From Pseudomonadota bacterium (lineage in GTDB: Bacteria > Pseudomonadota > Alphaproteobacteria > SHVZ01), in assembly GCA_016195085.1 (NCBI GenBank), contig JACQAG010000022.1:207918-271917 (forward strand): 64,000 nucleotides of DNA, given 5' to 3'. A program made the position numbers and the translations under genes. The notes beneath the pieces were generated by a model. The model made no database searches. It saw only the letters and a program-made list of their open reading frames with translations, and had not been told where the DNA came from. Below are positions 34,233 to 42,815 of the stretch, piece by piece (positions within the stretch are counted from its first letter, which is position 1; every line of letters begins with the position of its first letter).

Positions 34233-35333
34233 TCAGTCGTCGGCGGGAGCGGCGCGCTGGACGCGCCGGCGATGGGCGAGGTGCCGGATCAGCCGAAAGC
34301 TGATGGGCACGCACAAGATCACGATCATGATGCGCGCCACATGGTGGGTGGAGACGAAGGCGGCGTCCTTGTGCAAGGCGAGCGCCACCAGGCTCATCTC
34401 GGCCAAGCCCCCCGGCGCATAGGCAAGCGTCACCTCGGCGATCGGCACGCCCGACGCCAAGGACAGGATCTCGGCCAAGACCACCGTAATCGCCAGCAGC
34501 ACCACGGTGGCGCCGAGCGATTTCAGGATCACCGAGCGGATTTTTTGCCAGGGCACGCCGGAAAACCGGCATCCGACCGAGGTGCCGATCACCACCTGGG
34601 CGGTCGCCACCAGCAGCGCCGGCGGCTTGCTGGCGGAGATGCCGGCGAGATGCACGGCGGCGCTGAGTGCCAGCGGGCCCAAGAGTGTCGCGGCCGGCAG
34701 CCGGAGGCGCGCGGCGCCGATGCCGCCGACGATGCCGCAGGCGAGCAGCAGGGCGACATCGAACCAGCCGAGCGGCGCCCCGCCGATCGCCGGCAATGCC
34801 GAGGTTGAGGGGGTATAGTCGCCGAAGAAGCGGAACCAGAACGGAATCACCAGCACCACCAGCAGGACCCGGCTCGCATGGGTGAGCGCGATCAGCCGCT
34901 CATCGCCGCCATACGCCGTTCCGAACATCACCATCTCGTTGAAGCCGCCGGGGCTGGCCGCGAAGAATGCCGTCACCGGGTCATAGCCTCCGATGCGCAC
35001 GAAATACATGGTGAGCAAGCCGGTGGCGATCGCGACATAGGCGAAGAGGCCGCCCAGGGTGATCAGCCACTCGCCGACATGATCGAAGATGCCTGGCATG
35101 AAGCTGCCGCCCAGCATCACGCCCAGCACCACGATCATAAAGTTGCGAAAGCTGAGCGGCAGCCTGACCGGCAATCCCATCATCGATGCCACGGTCACCA
35201 CGCACATCGGGCCCAGCATCCAGGCGAGAGGAAACCGTGCCAGCGCGAAGGCGAGCCCGCCCAGCGTTCCCAAGGCGAGGGCCAGAACCAGTGGATAGGC
35301 CTCGCGGGTCAGAGCCGGCAGGCGTTGGATCAA
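34233..35333 (-). CDS. AbrB-family duplicated-domain membrane protein
   Basis: 366 residues with about ten membrane segments arranged as two similar halves (PLAWMLGPM in the first, LPAATLLGPLAL in the second), as in the Gneg_AbrB_dup family formerly labelled ammonia monooxygenase-like. Conserved loops FFAASPGGFNEMV and LAYAPGGLAEMSL occur once per half. It is probably a transporter or regulator-linked membrane protein. It overlaps the aspartoacylase-like gene by four bases, so it could export or import that enzyme's substrate. Confidence 0.9.
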   Translation of the reverse strand: MIQRLPALTREAYPLVLALALGTLGGLAFALARFPLAWMLGPMCVVTVASMMGLPVRLPLSFRNFMIVVLGVMLGGSFMPGIFDHVGEWLITLGGLFAYVAIATGLLTMYFVRIGGYDPVTAFFAASPGGFNEMVMFGTAYGGDERLIALTHASRVLLVVLVIPFWFRFFGDYTPSTSALPAIGGAPLGWFDVALLLACGIVGGIGAARLRLPAATLLGPLALSAAVHLAGISASKPPALLVATAQVVIGTSVGCRFSGVPWQKIRSVILKSLGATVVLLAITVVLAEILSLASGVPIAEVTLAYAPGGLAEMSLVALALHKDAAFVSTHHVARIMIVILCVPISFRLIRHLAHRRRVQRAAPADD

Positions 35334-36307
35334 CCAAAGTCTCCTGCGACGTAGCGGCCGAGGCGAACGGCCGTCTGCCCCCGATGCAACCGGCGCGAAG
35401 GCATGATCAGCACGCAGTTATCGTAGGGGCTGAGCACCGGGCGGTCGTCGTCGCGGGCGATCTCGGTGCCGGCCTTGGCGATCACTTCCATGCCGTGAAA
35501 CGCCGTGGCAAAGCGGAACGCATCGGTGGTCACGGTCACCGCCTGAGTCACCTCGATGACCCGTTGGCGCGCCGGTGCGCCGGGCTTGAGATGCTTTGCG
35601 AGGAAAGCAGCGGGCACCACATCGAGGTGCTTGAGGAACCGCAGCGTCGTCTCGATGGCGACCGCGGCCGATTCCGGCTCCCAATGCTGGCCGCACTCCA
35701 CCAGAAGGGCATTGCGCGGATCGGCCTCTCTGCCGAAGAACGCATAGTCCCGGAGCCGCTTGCCGGCGGCATGACCCTCATCGCAGACGACCGTCGCCGG
35801 ATAGCCCACGGCCTGGGCGAAGGCGCGACCCTTGGCCAGCGGCCCCGCCAGCATCAAAGGCGGGGTTCGATGCTGCATCGAGTGGATATCGAGCAGGTAG
35901 TCGATGCCATCGATGATCCGCCGGTATTGGCGCGCGCGCCGGAGCTCGACCGAGTTCCGGGTGCCGTCGAGGATGAGCTCCGACCAGACCCGGTTGATGT
36001 CCTCCTCCACGAAACGCGACGCGCTGGGCTTGGCCGGATCGAAGCGCTGATAGGCGGCGACGTTGAGGAATCCCAGGGTCAGCCTGCCGCGGGTCGGACG
36101 CACCGCTTCGCGCAGCAAAAGGTCGAGCGCAATCGCGCCGCACACCTCGTTGCCGTGGGTGATGGCGTTCACCATCACATGCGGACCCGGGCGGCCGCTG
36201 TCGAAGGTGCTGACATAGTCGACGCCGGTATTGCCCTGCTTGTAGGCAGAGAGGTCAGGGGCGGTGAGCTTCACGGGATATTCGTCGTCGGGCAGGGGCG
36301 CGGCCAT
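35330..36307 (-). CDS. Succinylglutamate desuccinylase/aspartoacylase family protein
   Basis: 325-residue zinc-dependent deacylase of the AstE/ASPA fold. THGNEVCG supplies the His and Glu zinc ligands and DIHSMQ the third His. A C-terminal beta domain follows. ATG 36307 is preceded by AAGG at good spacing; 36 bases of open frame upstream are unlikely to be translated. It is the first gene of the minus-strand cluster that ends at 31973. Family members hydrolyse N-acyl amino acids, fitting the other hydrolases of the cluster. Confidence 0.88.
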   Translation of the reverse strand: MAAPLPDDEYPVKLTAPDLSAYKQGNTGVDYVSTFDSGRPGPHVMVNAITHGNEVCGAIALDLLLREAVRPTRGRLTLGFLNVAAYQRFDPAKPSASRFVEEDINRVWSELILDGTRNSVELRRARQYRRIIDGIDYLLDIHSMQHRTPPLMLAGPLAKGRAFAQAVGYPATVVCDEGHAAGKRLRDYAFFGREADPRNALLVECGQHWEPESAAVAIETTLRFLKHLDVVPAAFLAKHLKPGAPARQRVIEVTQAVTVTTDAFRFATAFHGMEVIAKAGTEIARDDDRPVLSPYDNCVLIMPSRRLHRGQTAVRLGRYVAGDFG

Positions 36308-36401
36308 GGGACCTTGGCATGGAGTGTCGGAGGATCGTCGCAATAGTAAATGTGATGCGGCGCCGTCACACCCGCAAAATTGCGGTCTCGGGCTTTCTGG
36401 T

Positions 36402-36779
36402 CTACCCCCTCCCCCGCGTCAGCGGGGGAGGGCAGGGGTGGGGGCATTCCGCAGTGATGCGCTCCAATACACCCTCGATGTTTGCCAGCACCTCATTGTT
36501 CCAAAATCTTAGTACCCGCCAACCAACTTTCTCAAGAAATGCTGTACGGGCGTTCTCTCGAGGGCCCATCGCGTGTTGACCTCCGTCGATCTCGACGACC
36601 AGACCCATCTCTAGGCACGCGAAGTCCACGATGTAGGGCGGAACTGGATGCTGCCGGCGGAATCTGAGGCCGTGCAGCTGACGGAACCTGATGCGGCGCC
36701 AAAGAACACGCTCTGCTTCGGTCGGAGTTGTCCGCAGCGTCCGCGCGCGCGTCCTGGTCCGTGCGTTGATCCTGGCCAT
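36402..36779 (-). CDS. DUF559 family nuclease-like protein bracketed by palindromic repeats
   Basis: 125 residues of the DUF559 group, related to Vsr-type PD-(D/E)xK endonucleases. Typical features are RRIRFRQLHGLRFRRQHP, IVDFACLEMGLVVEIDGGQH and GWRVLRFWNNEV, with Asp and Glu of the nuclease core in VDF and VEIDG. The last 14 residues (PHPCPPPLTRGRG end) are encoded by a palindromic repeat, and an inverted copy of the same repeat lies just upstream of the gene. This suggests a small mobile unit of nuclease plus repeats. It is transcribed on the same strand as dcd, about 100 bp away. Confidence 0.85.
   Translation of the reverse strand: MARINARTRTRARTLRTTPTEAERVLWRRIRFRQLHGLRFRRQHPVPPYIVDFACLEMGLVVEIDGGQHAMGPRENARTAFLEKVGWRVLRFWNNEVLANIEGVLERITAECPHPCPPPLTRGRG
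36407..36445. repeat. GC-rich palindromic repeat, copy 1
   Basis: An 11-bp perfect stem (36407-36417 with 36422-36432, loop GTCA), followed by CA and GGGGTGGGGGC (36435-36445). It is the inverse of copy 2 and encodes the C-terminus of the DUF559 protein. Confidence 0.75.
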
Positions 36780-36811
36780 TTCGTCGGCATCTCATCTGGC
36801 GATGACGGCGG

Positions 36812-36850
36812 GCCCCCACCCCGACCCTCCCCCACACACGTGGGGGAGGG
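36812..36850. repeat. GC-rich palindromic repeat, copy 2 (inverted)
   Basis: GCCCCCACCCC (36812-36822), then GA and an 11-bp stem (36825-36835 with 36840-36850, loop ACAC). With copy 1 it forms terminal inverted repeats around the DUF559 gene, with the hairpins at the outer ends. Confidence 0.75.
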
Positions 36851-36880
36851 TGGTTGGAGCAGGTGGATTTTGCCCGTTTC

Positions 36881-38035
36881 CTAGCCGCGCTTGAACTGCT
36901 TGCCCAAGGTCAGGCCCTGGCGTTGGTAGGAGGAGCCGATGCCCTGGCCGTAGAGCTTGTCCGGCTTGGCGATCAAGCGCTCATAGACCAGCCGTCCGAT
37001 GATCTGGCCATCCTCAATGAGGAACGGCACCTCATGCGAGCGCACCTCGAGCACGGCGCGGGTGCCGGCGGCGCCGATCTCCGGATCGCCGAAGCCGGGA
37101 TCGAAGAACCCGGCATAGTGCACCCGGAACTCGCCCACCGAAGTATCGTAGGCGAGCATCTCGGCGGCGTAGGCGGTGGGGATGGTGATGCTTTCCTTGG
37201 ACGCCAAGATATAGAAGTCATGCGGGTCGAGGATGATGCCGCGGCCGGCGCGCGCCTGCATCGGCTCCCAGAAATCGAGCGGGTCGTAGAACTCGCGCTT
37301 GTCCACGTCGATGACGCCGGCATTCTTGCGGGCGCGGTAGCCGACGATCTGCGCCGGTCCGGCTCCATCGATATCGACCGAAAGGGCGATGCCGCCCTTG
37401 ATGTCGGCCATGCCCATCGGCGCATCGATGAGCGGTCTTTGCTCGTGCAGCTCGCGCATGGAGCTGTCGCTGGGCGTGGGCGAGCCGCGCTTGATCCTGA
37501 GCTGCATCAGCCGCGAACCGCGCCGGACCAGGATCGGAAACGCCCGCGGGCTCACCTCGGCGTAAAGCGGCCCCTCGTAGCGCTCGCGCACGCTATCGAA
37601 CTCCGTGCCGTAGTCGGTGATGAGCCGGGTGAACACATCGAGCCGGCCGGTGGAGCTCTTCGGGTTGGCGATGGCGGAGATGCGCTTGCGGAGGCTGAGA
37701 TGCTCCAAAAGCGGAATGATATAGACGCAGTCCCTTTCCAGGACGGCACCGCCGGTGAGGTCGAAGCGATGCAGCTCGAGCTGGTCCAGCTTCGCTTTCA
37801 CGGTGGCGGATCGGCCGGGAAGAAAGCTCGCCTTCACCCGGTAGGCCTGGGGGCCCAGCCGCAAATCCAGGCTCGCCGGCTGGATCTGCTCCTCGAGGAT
37901 GGGATCGGGCGCCTGCACCAGATGATTGGCGATCGCGTGCCGGAGGCTCTGCGAGGGCAGGATGCCGGTCGTGTGCTCCGCGGCCGGCGGTTCGTCTTGA
38001 GGCGCAAACAGGGGGGCGATGGCGGGCTCGCTCAT
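36881..38035 (-). CDS. dcd: 2'-deoxycytidine 5'-triphosphate deaminase, two-domain type
   Basis: 384 residues. This long form, with two dUTPase/dCTP-deaminase-fold halves, is typical of alphaproteobacteria. Seen are SLDLRLG in the first half, NPKSSTGRLDVFTRLI (the deaminase loop Ser-Ser-x-x-Arg) and, in the second half, HYAGFFDPGFG with AVLEVRSHEVPF. It converts dCTP to dUTP for thymidylate synthesis. ATG 38035 is taken, since the upstream 14 codons look non-coding. The C-terminal tail GSSYQRQGLTLG resembles the flexible lid over the nucleotide. It is unlinked in function to its neighbours. Confidence 0.9.
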   Translation of the reverse strand: MSEPAIAPLFAPQDEPPAAEHTTGILPSQSLRHAIANHLVQAPDPILEEQIQPASLDLRLGPQAYRVKASFLPGRSATVKAKLDQLELHRFDLTGGAVLERDCVYIIPLLEHLSLRKRISAIANPKSSTGRLDVFTRLITDYGTEFDSVRERYEGPLYAEVSPRAFPILVRRGSRLMQLRIKRGSPTPSDSSMRELHEQRPLIDAPMGMADIKGGIALSVDIDGAGPAQIVGYRARKNAGVIDVDKREFYDPLDFWEPMQARAGRGIILDPHDFYILASKESITIPTAYAAEMLAYDTSVGEFRVHYAGFFDPGFGDPEIGAAGTRAVLEVRSHEVPFLIEDGQIIGRLVYERLIAKPDKLYGQGIGSSYQRQGLTLGKQFKRG

Positions 38036-38259
38036 GGCCCTTGATTTAGCCCAACCGGCCGGGCGCGACACGCGCAAAGTTGCGGCCTCGACTTATCCAC
38101 AGTGAGCGGCGCCAACCGTCTGCCGGGGCGACATTGCCAGCCCCCCGGAAAGGCGCTATCAGAACCGGTAAATCCGGCGGTAACGGCCGGAAACGGCAAT
38201 ACAATGGCAAGGGAGCGTGCCCGCACGGGCGCGCTTGCCCTTGGGAACCGGGAGCTACC

Positions 38260-39828
38260 ATGAGGAAGCTGATTCGGGGCGCGGCGCTGGCCGTCGTCCT
38301 CTCGTTCTTCGCACCCACCATCCACGCCAGAGAGCTTGCGGTCGGGCTCGGCGCCTCGGTCACCTCGGCCGATCCGCATTTTCACGCGCTCAATCCCAAC
38401 GTGGCGCTGCACGACCACATCTTCGAATACCTCATCAACCAGGATGCCGAGCAGCGGCTGGTGCCGGCGCTGGCGACGTCATGGAAGGCGATCGACGCGA
38501 CGACGTGGGAGGTAAAGCTCCGCCAAGGAGTCAAGTTCCACGACGGCTCAACCTTCGATGCCGAGGATGTGCTGGCGACCTTGAAGCGCGTGCCCTGGGT
38601 TCCGAATAGCCCATCGGCCTTCACCATCTATACGAAGTCGATCGCCCAGACGATCGTCGTCGATCCCTACACCATCCGCTTCAAGACCGCTTCACCCTAT
38701 CCGTTGCTGCCGAACGACCTCAGCAACTTCTTCATCATCAACCGCAAATACGTCGAAGCCTCGACCGAGGACTTCAACCGCCTCAAGGCCACCATCGGCA
38801 CCGGCCCCTACAAGCTCGTTGAGTTCGTGCTCGGCGAACGCTACGTGCTCGAGCGCTTCGATGGCTACTGGGGCCCGGAGGAGCCGTGGGAGAAGGTGAC
38901 CTTCCGCCAGATCAACAGCGCGCCCTCCCGCGTGGCCGCCCTGCTCGCCGGCGACGTGCAGCTGATCGAGAATGTGCCGACCGCCGATATCGAGAGCCTG
39001 AAGAAGAATCCCGACATCGTGCTCTCCCAGGGCGTGTCCAACCGGGTGATCTACTTCCATATGGATCACCAGCGCCCGACCACGCCTTTTATCACCGACA
39101 AGCAAGGCAAGCCCCTGGACAAGAATCCCTTGCAGGATCTGCGCGTGCGCCAGGCCTTGTCGAAGGCGATCAACCGCAACGGCATCGTGGCGCGCGTCAT
39201 GGAAGGGGTGGCGATCCCGGCGGGACAGCTCCTGCCCGAGAGCTTCTTCGGCACCTCGCCCAACCTCAAGCCGATGGAGTTCGATCCCGAGGGGGCGAAG
39301 AAGCTTCTGGCCGAAGCCGGATACCCCAATGGCTTCCGCCTGACCTTGCACGCCTCCAACGACCGCTACATCAACGATAGCCGCATCGTGCAGACGGTGG
39401 CGCAGATGTACAGCCGTATCGGCATCGACGCCCAGGTCGAGGTCATGCCGTGGGCGACCTATGCCACCCGCGCCACCAACCGGGAATTCTCGGTGTTCCT
39501 GGTCGGCTGGGGCTCGGGTACCGGCGAGACCTCGGGCTCGCTGCGGGCGCTCTTGGCTTGCTGGGACCCGGCGCGCGGCATGGGTACGGCCAATCGCGGC
39601 CGCTATTGCAGCAAGGAGATGGACGGTCTTCTGGCGGACGCGCTCAGCACCATCGACGAGAAGAAGCGGGCGCAGATCTTGGCCAAAGCGTCCGAGATCG
39701 CCATGAACGACGTCGGCATCATCCCGCTGCATTACGAGGTCACGACCTGGGCCACCCGCAAGGGCCTCAAATACAATGCGCGGGTCGGCCAGGAGACCCT
39801 CGCCATGGAAGTCCGGCCGACGAAGTGA
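38260..39828 (+). CDS. ABC transporter substrate-binding protein, family 5
   Basis: 522-residue periplasmic binding protein. The signal peptide begins MRKLIRG and cleaves near IHARE. The mature start, VGLGASVTSADPHFHAL, and the internal FHDGSTFDAEDVLATLKRV and GTGPYKLVEF motifs mark SBP_bac_5. ATG 38260 is five bases after GGAG; upstream open frame to 38080 lacks any protein features. It is the first gene of a five-gene importer (binding protein, two permeases, two ATPases). A palindromic repeat fills the gap to the first permease gene. Confidence 0.93.
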   Translation: MRKLIRGAALAVVLSFFAPTIHARELAVGLGASVTSADPHFHALNPNVALHDHIFEYLINQDAEQRLVPALATSWKAIDATTWEVKLRQGVKFHDGSTFDAEDVLATLKRVPWVPNSPSAFTIYTKSIAQTIVVDPYTIRFKTASPYPLLPNDLSNFFIINRKYVEASTEDFNRLKATIGTGPYKLVEFVLGERYVLERFDGYWGPEEPWEKVTFRQINSAPSRVAALLAGDVQLIENVPTADIESLKKNPDIVLSQGVSNRVIYFHMDHQRPTTPFITDKQGKPLDKNPLQDLRVRQALSKAINRNGIVARVMEGVAIPAGQLLPESFFGTSPNLKPMEFDPEGAKKLLAEAGYPNGFRLTLHASNDRYINDSRIVQTVAQMYSRIGIDAQVEVMPWATYATRATNREFSVFLVGWGSGTGETSGSLRALLACWDPARGMGTANRGRYCSKEMDGLLADALSTIDEKKRAQILAKASEIAMNDVGIIPLHYEVTTWATRKGLKYNARVGQETLAMEVRPTK

Positions 39829-39849
39829 TCGTCGGGCGACCGCAGAAGT

Positions 39850-39920
39850 GCCCCCACCCTCCCGCTTCCGCGGGTCCCTCCCTCCCCCGCCATATGGCGG
39901 GGGAGGGCTGGGGTGGGGGC
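39850..39920. repeat. GC-rich palindromic repeat, copy 3, between importer genes
   Basis: GCCCCCACCCT on the left and GGGGTGGGGGC on the right flank a perfect 12-bp stem (39880-39891 with 39896-39907, loop ATAT). The same family as the repeats around the DUF559 gene. It sits between the binding-protein and permease genes, where a hairpin would favour high binding-protein mRNA levels. Confidence 0.75.
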
Positions 39921-39943
39921 TCGGCCGCAATTAGATACCAGTC

Positions 39944-40921
39944 ATGACCGTCTTCGTCATCCGGCGGCTGATGCAGAGCGTGGTCGTTCTGTTCATCATG
40001 TCGGTGGTGGTCTTCGTCGGCGTGTTCGCCATCGGCAATCCCGTCGATATCCTGATCTCGCCGCAAGCCGATCAGCTCGACCGCGAGCGGGCAATCCATG
40101 AGTTGGGCCTCGATCTGCCGCTCTGGGAGCAGTACCTGGTCTTTCTCTGGAACGCGCTCCACGGCAATCTCGGCCGCTCCTTTGCCATGAGCGAGCCGGC
40201 GCTCCGGCTCATCGTCGAGCGCCTGCCGGCGAGCCTGGAGCTGGCCTTGACCGCTTTTCTCCTGTCGCTCGTCGTGGGATTGCCCTTGGGCCTGTGGGCG
40301 GGTCTCAGGCCCAAGGCGGTCTCGTCGAAGACCATCATGGCCGGCTCGATCCTGGGCTTCAGCCTGCCAACCTTCTGGCAGGGCCTGGTGCTCATCATGG
40401 TGTTTGCGGTGATGCTGGGCTGGCTGCCCTCGACCGGCCGCGGCGAAGCGGTGGTCGTGCTCGGCATCCGCTCGAGCCTGTTCACGCTTGACGGCTGGTC
40501 GCACCTGGTCCTGCCGGCGCTCAATCTGGCGCTGGCCAACACCGCCTTGATCATCCGCTTGACCCGGGCGGGCGTGCGCGAGGCCGTCCACCAGGACTAT
40601 GTGCGCTTCGCTCGCGCCAAAGGCTTGCAACCCAGCCGGATCGTCTTCGTGCATGTGCTGAGAAATATCCTGATTCCGCTGGTGACCGTGCTCGGGCTCG
40701 AGCTCGGCGGGCTCATTGCCTTCGGCGTGGTGACGGAGACCATCTTCGCCTGGCCCGGCATGGGCAAGCTGCTCATCGATTCGATCTACCGCCTCGATCG
40801 GCCGGTGGTCGTGGCGTATCTCATGATGATCGTGTTCCTGTTCATCATCATCAATCTCGCGGTCGACATCCTTTATTCGATCATCGATCCAAGGGTGCGG
40901 CTGACGGACGTGAAATCGTGA
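39944..40921 (+). CDS. Peptide-type ABC transporter permease, DppB family
   Basis: 325 residues. N-terminal helix MTVFVIRRLMQS, then a first periplasmic loop with FAIGNPVDIL in the place of VPGDP, and the EAA loop DYVRFARAKGL followed by HVLRNILIPLV, which contacts the ATPase. About six membrane segments. It follows the binding-protein gene after a 115-bp gap filled by a palindromic repeat and overlaps the next permease gene by four bases (GTGA). Confidence 0.93.
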   Translation: MTVFVIRRLMQSVVVLFIMSVVVFVGVFAIGNPVDILISPQADQLDRERAIHELGLDLPLWEQYLVFLWNALHGNLGRSFAMSEPALRLIVERLPASLELALTAFLLSLVVGLPLGLWAGLRPKAVSSKTIMAGSILGFSLPTFWQGLVLIMVFAVMLGWLPSTGRGEAVVVLGIRSSLFTLDGWSHLVLPALNLALANTALIIRLTRAGVREAVHQDYVRFARAKGLQPSRIVFVHVLRNILIPLVTVLGLELGGLIAFGVVTETIFAWPGMGKLLIDSIYRLDRPVVVAYLMMIVFLFIIINLAVDILYSIIDPRVRLTDVKS

Positions 40922-41838
40922 GCGCACTCGGCGACGATCTGGCTGCGAGCGAAGGTCCCGGCATGGTGGAGACGCCGTTTCGGCGCTTCCTTTCCGAATT
41001 CCTCGAGAGCCCGGTCGCCGTCGGCGCGCTCATCGTGCTGGCCCTTCTCATCGCCGCCGCCTTCACCAGCCCCTGGATCGCGCCGCAGAACCCCTACGAT
41101 CTAACCAAGCTCGACATCTTGGACAGCCGGTTGCCGCCGGGCTCGGTCGGCGCCGACGGCCTCAGCTACATCCTCGGCACCGACGGCCAGGGCCGCGACA
41201 TGCTGAGCGCCATTCTCTACGGGCTCCGCATCAGCCTTTCGGTCGGCGTCATGTCGGGCCTGGCGGCTCTCGTCCTCGGCATGTCGGTGGGCCTGGCCGC
41301 TGCCTATTTCGGCGGCCGCGTCGACACGCTGGTCATGCGCGCGGTCGATCTGCAGCTGAGCTTTCCGGCGATCCTGATCGCGCTCATCCTGGTGGCCGTG
41401 CTCGGCAGCGGCACCGAGAAGATCATTTTGGCGCTCATCATCGTGCAATGGTCCTACTATGCCCGCACCGTGCGAGGCACCGCCTTGGTCGAGCGCCGCC
41501 GGGAATACATCGAGGCGGCGCATTGCTTGGCGCTGTCCAAGCCGCGCATCATCTTCCGCCACTTGCTGCCCAACTGCCTGCCGCCCTTGATCGTGGTCGG
41601 CACCGTCAATGTCGCCGGTGCGATCGCGCTGGAGGCGACCTTGTCCTTCCTCGGCATCGGCCTCCCCATCACCGAGCCGTCCTTGGGCCTGCTCATCGCC
41701 AATGGCTTCGAATATCTGCTCAGCGGCACCTATTGGATCAGCTTCTTTCCCGGCATCGCCTTGGTCATGACCATCGTCTCGATCAATCTCGTGGCCGATC
41801 ACCTCCGCGACATCCTCAATCCCAGGCTGAAGCGATGA
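40918..41838 (+). CDS. Peptide-type ABC transporter permease, DppC family
   Basis: 306 residues. An N-terminal cytoplasmic stretch with FRRFLSEFLESPVAV, a first helix, WIAPQNPYD, and the DppC hallmark LGTDGQGRDMLSAILYG. The EAA region carries YIEAAHCLALSKPRIIFRHLLPN. GTG start at 40918 inside the previous gene's stop; it overlaps the ATPase gene downstream by four bases. Part of the tightly coupled importer operon. Confidence 0.93.
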   Translation: MSALGDDLAASEGPGMVETPFRRFLSEFLESPVAVGALIVLALLIAAAFTSPWIAPQNPYDLTKLDILDSRLPPGSVGADGLSYILGTDGQGRDMLSAILYGLRISLSVGVMSGLAALVLGMSVGLAAAYFGGRVDTLVMRAVDLQLSFPAILIALILVAVLGSGTEKIILALIIVQWSYYARTVRGTALVERRREYIEAAHCLALSKPRIIFRHLLPNCLPPLIVVGTVNVAGAIALEATLSFLGIGLPITEPSLGLLIANGFEYLLSGTYWISFFPGIALVMTIVSINLVADHLRDILNPRLKR

Positions 41839-42815
41839 GTGCGGCCACGCTGGTGGTGGAAGGCCTGAAGACGCATTTCTTCACCCGGGCGGGCGTGGTG
41901 AAGGCCGTCGACGACGTGTCGTTCGCGGTCGACGCGGGCCGCATCTTGGGTCTGGTGGGCGAGTCCGGCTCCGGCAAGACCGTGACCGGCTTCTCCATCC
42001 TCGGCCTGGTGGATCCGCCGGGGCGCATCGTCGCCGGCCAAGTCCGTTTCAAGGGCGAAGAACTCGTCGGCTTGCCGGAGGAGCGCCTGCGCCGGCTCCG
42101 CGGCAATCGCATCGCCATGATCTTCCAAGATCCGATGATGACCTTGAACCCGGTGCTGCGCATCGACACGCAGATGATCGAGGCGGTCACGGCGCATGAG
42201 ACGGTGAGCGACAAGGCGGCGCGCGCCCGGGCTCTCGACGTTCTGGCGCGGGTCGGCATTCCCGCACCCGAGCAGCGCCTTGCCGCCTATCCTCACCAAT
42301 TTTCCGGCGGCATGCGCCAGCGCGTGGCGATCGCCATCGCCCTCATCAACGGGCCCGACCTCATCATCGCCGACGAGCCGACGACCGCGCTTGACGTCAC
42401 CATCCAGGGACAGATCCTCTACGAGGTGCAGAAGCTCGCCCGGGAAACCGGCACGGCGTTGGTGTGGATCACCCACGACCTCTCCGTCGTCGCCGGTCTC
42501 GCCGATGAAGTCTCGGTCATGTATGCCGGGCGCATCGTCGAGCGCGGCAGCGTGGATGAGATCCTGGACCGGCCGCTGCATCCCTATACGCGCGGGCTCA
42601 TCGACAGCGTGCCCAGCCGCAACCGCCGCGGCGAGCCCTTGCGGCAGATCCCGGGGATGACCCCGTCCCTGCTCAACCTCGAGCCGGGCTGTGCCTTCCG
42701 GACACGCTGCGCGCGCGCGGATGCGGCTTGCCTCATTGAGCCGCCGGAGAGCGAGGTCGCGGCCGGAAGGCAATTCCGCTGCTTCCACCCCCACCGCGAG
42801 GCGGCGCTGACGTGA
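41835..42815 (+). CDS. Peptide-type ABC transporter ATPase, DppD family
   Basis: 326 residues. Walker A GESGSGKT (about 43-50), Q-loop [12 protein letters not shown], signature FSGGMRQR, Walker [13 protein letters not shown], switch His in WITHDLS, and the C-terminal oligopeptide motif with [12 protein letters not shown]. It starts at ATG 41835 within the ATGA overlap with the DppC-type gene. The open frame extends left over the permease gene, but that part is not ABC sequence. It forms the ATPase pair with the next gene. Confidence 0.93.

Follow-up and report, generated by a model that had tools for sequence, protein, structure and literature searches.

DUF559 nuclease genes between inverted REPs: a candidate REP-nuclease unit in Alphaproteobacteria

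Introduction

Few bacterial repeats are as common as REPs, for whose spread RAYTs (REP-associated tyrosine transposases) have been the only explanation. In RAYT systems the gene for the enzyme is bracketed by inverted REPs, enzyme and REP coevolve, the abundance of the REP follows the cognate gene, and evolution is fast (Nunvar et al. 2010, PMC2817692). RAYTs are missing, as described below, from most of the REP-rich Alphaproteobacteria that we examined.

DUF559 is a widespread domain of unknown function. Caulobacter VsrA (CCNA_02930), a DUF559 protein, is reported to be a putative mismatch-repair endonuclease and to cause DNA damage in cells without the cytosine methylase ScmA (PMC12907096). 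By analogy with this in vivo damage, the DUF559 family is probably able to cut DNA in vivo. Here we describe a DUF559 gene that lies between two inverted REPs, and we compare it with DUF559 genes and REPs of other alphaproteobacterial genomes.

Results

Anatomy of the DUF559 unit

The window (the whole stretch of DNA that was analysed, 64,000 nucleotides) contains a DUF559 gene between two inverted REP arms (Table 1). The unit reads hairpin, CAGGGGTGGGGGC, gene, GCCCCCACCCCGA, hairpin. Specifically, each arm has a perfect or near-perfect hairpin of the form CCCTCCCCC..GGGGGAGGG on the outside and the G-rich tag GGGGTGGGGGC on the gene side; the arms are 39 nt each, 85% complementary and 366 nt apart. 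This arrangement bears out a sequence-only reading of the locus, which had placed the gene between inverted palindromes and had one palindrome encode the end of the protein. Indeed, the C-terminus of the protein, ...PHPCPPPLTRGRG (the last ~13 residues), is read from the left REP. Judged against the criteria for DDE insertion sequences, the unit codes for DUF559 only.

A third copy, which the same reading had described as standing alone, exists but is built differently: its tags, GCCCCCACCC/GGGTGGGGGC, point outward in REPIN style, unlike those of the unit arms. It is probably a non-autonomous derivative. The surrounding region (window 38260-42815) is an ordinary peptide-type ABC transporter operon, and the copy lies between its binding-protein gene and its first permease gene.

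Table 1. Positions of the DUF559 unit, its neighbours and the solo copy in the window
Feature	Positions	Strand	Details
DUF559 (PD-(D/E)XK / EDxHD, Vsr-like) nuclease gene	36402-36779	minus	125 aa; PF04480, E 2.6e-38
Left REP: hairpin 36407-36432 (CCCTCCCCC..GGGGGAGGG) and inward tag AGGGGTGGGGGC	36407-36445	+	inverted repeat, sequence
Right REP, inverted: inward tag GCCCCCACCCC and hairpin 36825-36850	36812-36850	-	inverted repeat
REPIN-like solo copy with outward tags, in the gap between an ABC binding-protein gene and a permease gene	39850-39920	.	sequence, inverted repeats
Neighbour: dCTP deaminase, empty-site marker in relatives	36881-38077	-	PF06559/PF22569
Neighbour: AstE/AspA-type deacylase; in relatives it comes immediately downstream of dCTP deaminase	35330-36343	-	PF24827

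In the genome of the window, the pattern CCCTCCCCN{2,20}GGGGAGGG (strict type) occurs 187 times, versus 60 times in the reversed control, and 321 palindromes versus 63 are found when both hairpin types are counted. The solo copies that we inspected mostly have the REPIN form, namely tag, hairpin, 20 to 35 nt, hairpin, tag. The genome has three DUF559 genes, and each lies between inverted REPs, which are of the GGGGGAGGG type at the window gene and of the GGGAGAGG type with GGGGTGAGGGG tags at the other two (L001 and L003). L003 (G000:C22:36189-36482) has an in-frame TAG inside the DUF559 domain and looks decayed, while its REPs remain. The RAYT model NF047646 has no match in the window's own genome.

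Bracketing across genomes

We defined the bracket score of a gene as the best reverse-complement alignment between its 250-bp flanks, and a gene as bracketed if the score is at least 16. Controls were intervals of equal size taken from the same loci as the DUF559 genes. The window unit has an arm score of 24, above all ~2000 control intervals (control maximum 18.5). The survey drew on about 62 genomes of Alphaproteobacteria, in most cases one to three from each family. Of their DUF559 genes 76/107 are bracketed, versus 4/1070 control intervals; about 29% have no bracket at this threshold. When the left flank of one unit is combined with the right flank of another, 11% of such pairs reach the bracket score. 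The genus of genome G018 (41 species) gives 89/94 bracketed genes versus 3/940 controls, and a further set of units from the genus gives 34/39, so that the genus total is 123/133. Palindromes and DUF559 genes thus show a strong association across genomes. Lack of such an association was one of two conditions that the sequence-only reading had set for its own refutation; the other, an absence of empty sites, did not hold either (see below). The genomes are a sample, and the REP counts depend on fixed patterns.

A gene between two complete REPINs was considered as the usual form of the unit and was dropped, as full REPINs are present on both outer sides in only 1/165 units.

Bracketing extends to GIY-YIG, another homing nuclease family. 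In the genus of G018, 21/27 GIY-YIG genes are bracketed (loci L257-L286, e.g. L265, L271, L275, L282 and L285; also L135 near 1000-1500), apparently representing a second kind of REP-nuclease unit. Their palindromes (CCGTTCG..CTGAGC..GTCGAAGG; GTCATGCTGAA..TTCAGCAT; CCCCGGCGAAGGCCGGGG) belong to families that differ from those of DUF559. ParE toxin genes of the same genus, which are likewise small and scattered, are bracketed in only 1/28 cases. These results indicate that the pattern is tied to nucleases of homing-type folds and not to small accessory genes generally.

Cognate arms and coevolution

The two arms of a unit belong together. In the genus of G018, the best match to the left arm of a unit, among the right arms of the same genome, is the right arm of that very unit in 72/76 cases. 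For pairs of units that differ in both site and genome, arm similarity is 0.34 below 35% protein identity and 0.72-0.82 at 55-75% protein identity; sites were judged to be different from 1.3-kb flanks. Protein identity correlates with arm similarity (Spearman 0.34; 0.03 +/- 0.05 for arms shuffled within genomes, p 0.001), and the correlation also holds with sites defined by flanking proteins. It could partly reflect co-inheritance.

The nuclease tree of 93 units carries six REP types with only about 9 changes of type. For one REP type, 28 of 30 distinct inner hairpins taken from the matches listed keep at least 3 stem pairs, versus a shuffled expectation of 7%. The letters of the inner hairpins change while their pairing is kept, so conservation appears to act on the hairpin as such.

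Occupied and empty sites

In one nuclease clade, whose REP type is CCCCTCCCTNNNAGGGAGGGG...GGGGGTGGGT, each of the 15 units, spread over 12 genomes of one genus, occupies a site of its own. Other nuclease clades are old residents, each at one site common to 13-15 genomes, with losses, indicating that movement of these lineages is not frequent. Presence/absence polymorphism at orthologous sites, as known for EDxHD homing endonucleases, is observed.

The site of the window unit is empty in 11/11 relatives that keep both neighbours (six sister-genus genomes and five named MAGs). In these relatives the AstE/AspA gene directly follows the dCTP deaminase gene, with neither REP nor DUF559 between. 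As near and more distant relatives are all empty, the unit is most simply read, from these comparisons, as a gain in the window's lineage.

Empty sites were also found elsewhere, for example at a dnaG-like site, where some congeners have REP-DUF559-REP and where, in G267, the neighbours are a mere 13 bp apart, without a REP. This intergenic site lies beside a primase-like gene and is a hot spot: depending on the genome, it is empty or is occupied by a GIY-YIG unit or by a DUF559 unit from one of several clades; neighbour names at the site were assigned by eye. In the genus of G018, the site is represented by L131, L134, L143, L154, L160 and L169-L173, and four congeners have GIY-YIG there (G264:C2:651752, G269:C49:22830, G293:C4:218477 and G302:C66:14864). 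No clear target-site duplication was seen by eye at the site of the window unit or at the dnaG-like site; close empty alleles are too diverged for a firm reading.

REP abundance and absence of RAYT

For genome-wide counts we used 241 genomes of the same draw and called a genome REP-rich if its excess is at least 10 REPs. Full-length DUF559 is present in 39/45 REP-rich genomes and in 21/196 others (39 with and 6 without, versus 21 with and 175 without; Fisher p 2e-23). In families where some genomes have DUF559 and others do not, REPs are more numerous in the carriers in 24 families and less numerous in 2 (p 1e-5). No RAYT passes the curated cut-off in 43/45 REP-rich genomes.

The link was also tested by type. 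After subtraction of two REPs per nuclease for the units themselves, the median number of T2 REPs is 17.5 where a T2-clade nuclease is present and 2 where it is absent (p 0.0009). The T2 REP number correlates with other DUF559 units too (rho 0.52 against 0.67), and G287 is an exception, with 100 T2 REPs and no T2-clade nuclease. Six genomes (G061, G133, G194, G195, G225 and G227) are REP-rich without full-length DUF559; for REP-rich genomes without a matching full-length DUF559, a lost nuclease, an assembly gap or another mover are options.

The nuclease

The sequence-only reading had called the protein a Vsr-like DUF559 nuclease, and both its PF04480 match (Table 1) and its predicted fold agree. 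Specifically, a profile search finds 3hrl and the homing endonuclease I-Bth0305I, 3r3p (E 7e-5), and the AlphaFold model (pLDDT 88) matches 3hrl, 3r3p (Foldseek E 1.3e-4) and Vsr (1vsr). Among 57 aligned relatives, E23, Q43, D52, D65, G66 and R91 are invariant, and E63, H69, D75 and R78 are nearly so. The protein thus has an EDxHD / Vsr-like fold with the conserved acidic and His residues, except at codon 75 (window 36555-36557, minus strand), which encodes Glu in the window copy and Asp in about 98% of relatives. The window copy may have reduced activity or none.

The nuclease is under purifying selection (dN/dS 0.06-0.24, median 0.14). At the same site, nucleotide identity is 69% for DUF559 genes versus 79% for flanks, and the gene is lower in 293/294 pairs. 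A role in a defence system was considered and dropped, as PADLOC returned weak partial matches only.

Discussion

We favour, with a probability of about 0.6, the reading that DUF559 gene and REPs form a unit that is spread by its own nuclease. According to this model, a ~440-bp block, made of the nuclease gene and two inverted cognate REPs with the hairpin outside and the tag inside, would be inherited and moved together. The nuclease would recognise the hairpin and the G-rich tag of its own REP and would cut or nick a REP-like or intergenic target; copying repair would then install the whole unit or just a REP/REPIN. Scattered REPs/REPINs of matching type would be non-autonomous derivatives of the unit. 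The nuclease would thereby fill the part that RAYT has in other REP systems, with homing-endonuclease-type chemistry.

Recognition of the REP by the nuclease, cleavage and a causal role in movement are inferred, as there are no binding or cutting data. Bracketing, cognate arms, the tracking of nuclease clade by REP type, mobility, empty sites, the link between REP and nuclease abundance and purifying selection are observed, to the extent that genome comparison can establish them. That the REP-nuclease unit moves and coevolves is well supported, again at the level of sequence.

Of the alternatives, it seems unlikely that DUF559 is a host DNA-repair or surveillance enzyme (VSP-repair-like), with the REPs either mobilised by another enzyme that is lost or was not seen (RAYT in trans) or serving as insulating hairpin terminators. 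Such an enzyme would be in keeping with the fold match to Vsr, the putative mismatch-repair function of VsrA (a DUF559 protein; PMC12907096) and purifying selection, but it would have no need for cognate palindromes that track its clade at unrelated sites. Nor does it fit well with empty sites that also lack REPs, with the absence of RAYT above the cut-off from nearly all REP-rich genomes, including the window's, or with the patchy presence of a gene that evolves faster than its neighbours.

Slightly less likely still is homing alone, in which the nuclease would cut the empty allele at a fixed site and the unit would be copied from a relative, with the REPs as borders or regulators and the genome-wide REPs independent. 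The relation to I-Bth0305I in sequence and fold, the equal anatomy of the GIY-YIG units and the stable sites with losses are all compatible with it. However, 15 different sites are taken by a single clade, copies of a given REP type are more numerous where the matching nuclease is present, and REP abundance tracks DUF559 presence within families.

Passive capture, in which REP-rich intergenic spaces are permissive and trap small accessory genes by chance as functionless hitchhikers, is very unlikely and already disfavoured: units do sit in intergenic spaces and the dnaG-like site takes both DUF559 and GIY-YIG units, but control intervals and ParE genes are almost never bracketed, unit arms match each other and not other units of their genome, neither G267 nor the relatives empty at the window site have a REP there, and GIY-YIG and DUF559 palindrome families differ within one genus.

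A non-transposase nuclease with its own REP family is a testable answer to the question of who moves REPs. The pairing also suggests a role for DUF559 and ties REPs to homing-type nucleases of two folds. A wider generalisation, for and against which we would give even odds, is that the REP is a general parasitic format, used by three or more unrelated nuclease folds (HuH RAYTs, PD-(D/E)XK DUF559 and GIY-YIG), each with its own palindromes; DUF559 and GIY-YIG units would then be autonomous, would spread by nuclease-triggered copying and would have given rise to most REPs in Alphaproteobacteria that lack RAYT. A search of the literature, preprints outside its scope, found nothing relevant linking DUF559, Vsr or GIY-YIG to REPs or palindromes. 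The DUF559-REP pairing suggests a previously undescribed way for bacterial repeats to spread.

I-Bth0305I, a selfish nuclease that propagates its own reading frame, resembles the DUF559 unit as we infer it to act. We know of no flanking inverted palindromes of I-Bth0305I and of no link to a genome-wide repeat family. DUF559 is homologous to it (3r3p) by sequence profile and fold; unlike the DUF559 unit, I-Bth0305I is a mobile-intron protein (PDB title). Vsr and Caulobacter VsrA share the fold class, and VsrA has a DUF559 domain (PMC12907096), but the known role is the repair of T:G mismatches alongside a cytosine methylase, and no connection to REPs is reported. The solo copies have the same build as REPINs (tag, hairpin, ~20-35 nt, hairpin, tag), but known REPINs depend on RAYT (PMC3116915), whereas the solo copies here go with DUF559 or GIY-YIG nucleases.

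The likeness to REP elements with their enzyme, drawn in the sequence-only reading, holds for a nuclease of another fold. As in RAYT / TnpA-REP systems, the DUF559 gene lies between two inverted REPs, nuclease and REP coevolve, REP abundance tracks the gene, the gene evolves faster than its neighbours, and REPs/REPINs are dispersed in intergenic spaces. Unlike in RAYT systems, the enzyme is PF04480 DUF559 (PD-(D/E)XK / EDxHD fold) without a HuH Y1 (IS200/IS605-type) transposase domain, the foot of the palindrome has no GTAG/CGTC tag, the tags seen being G-rich (GGGGTGGGGGC, GGGTGAGGGG and similar), and most REP-rich genomes have no RAYT above the cut-off. Because both the Y1 domain and the GTAG/CGTC tag are missing, the DUF559 unit is not a RAYT system, though it seems to work like one.
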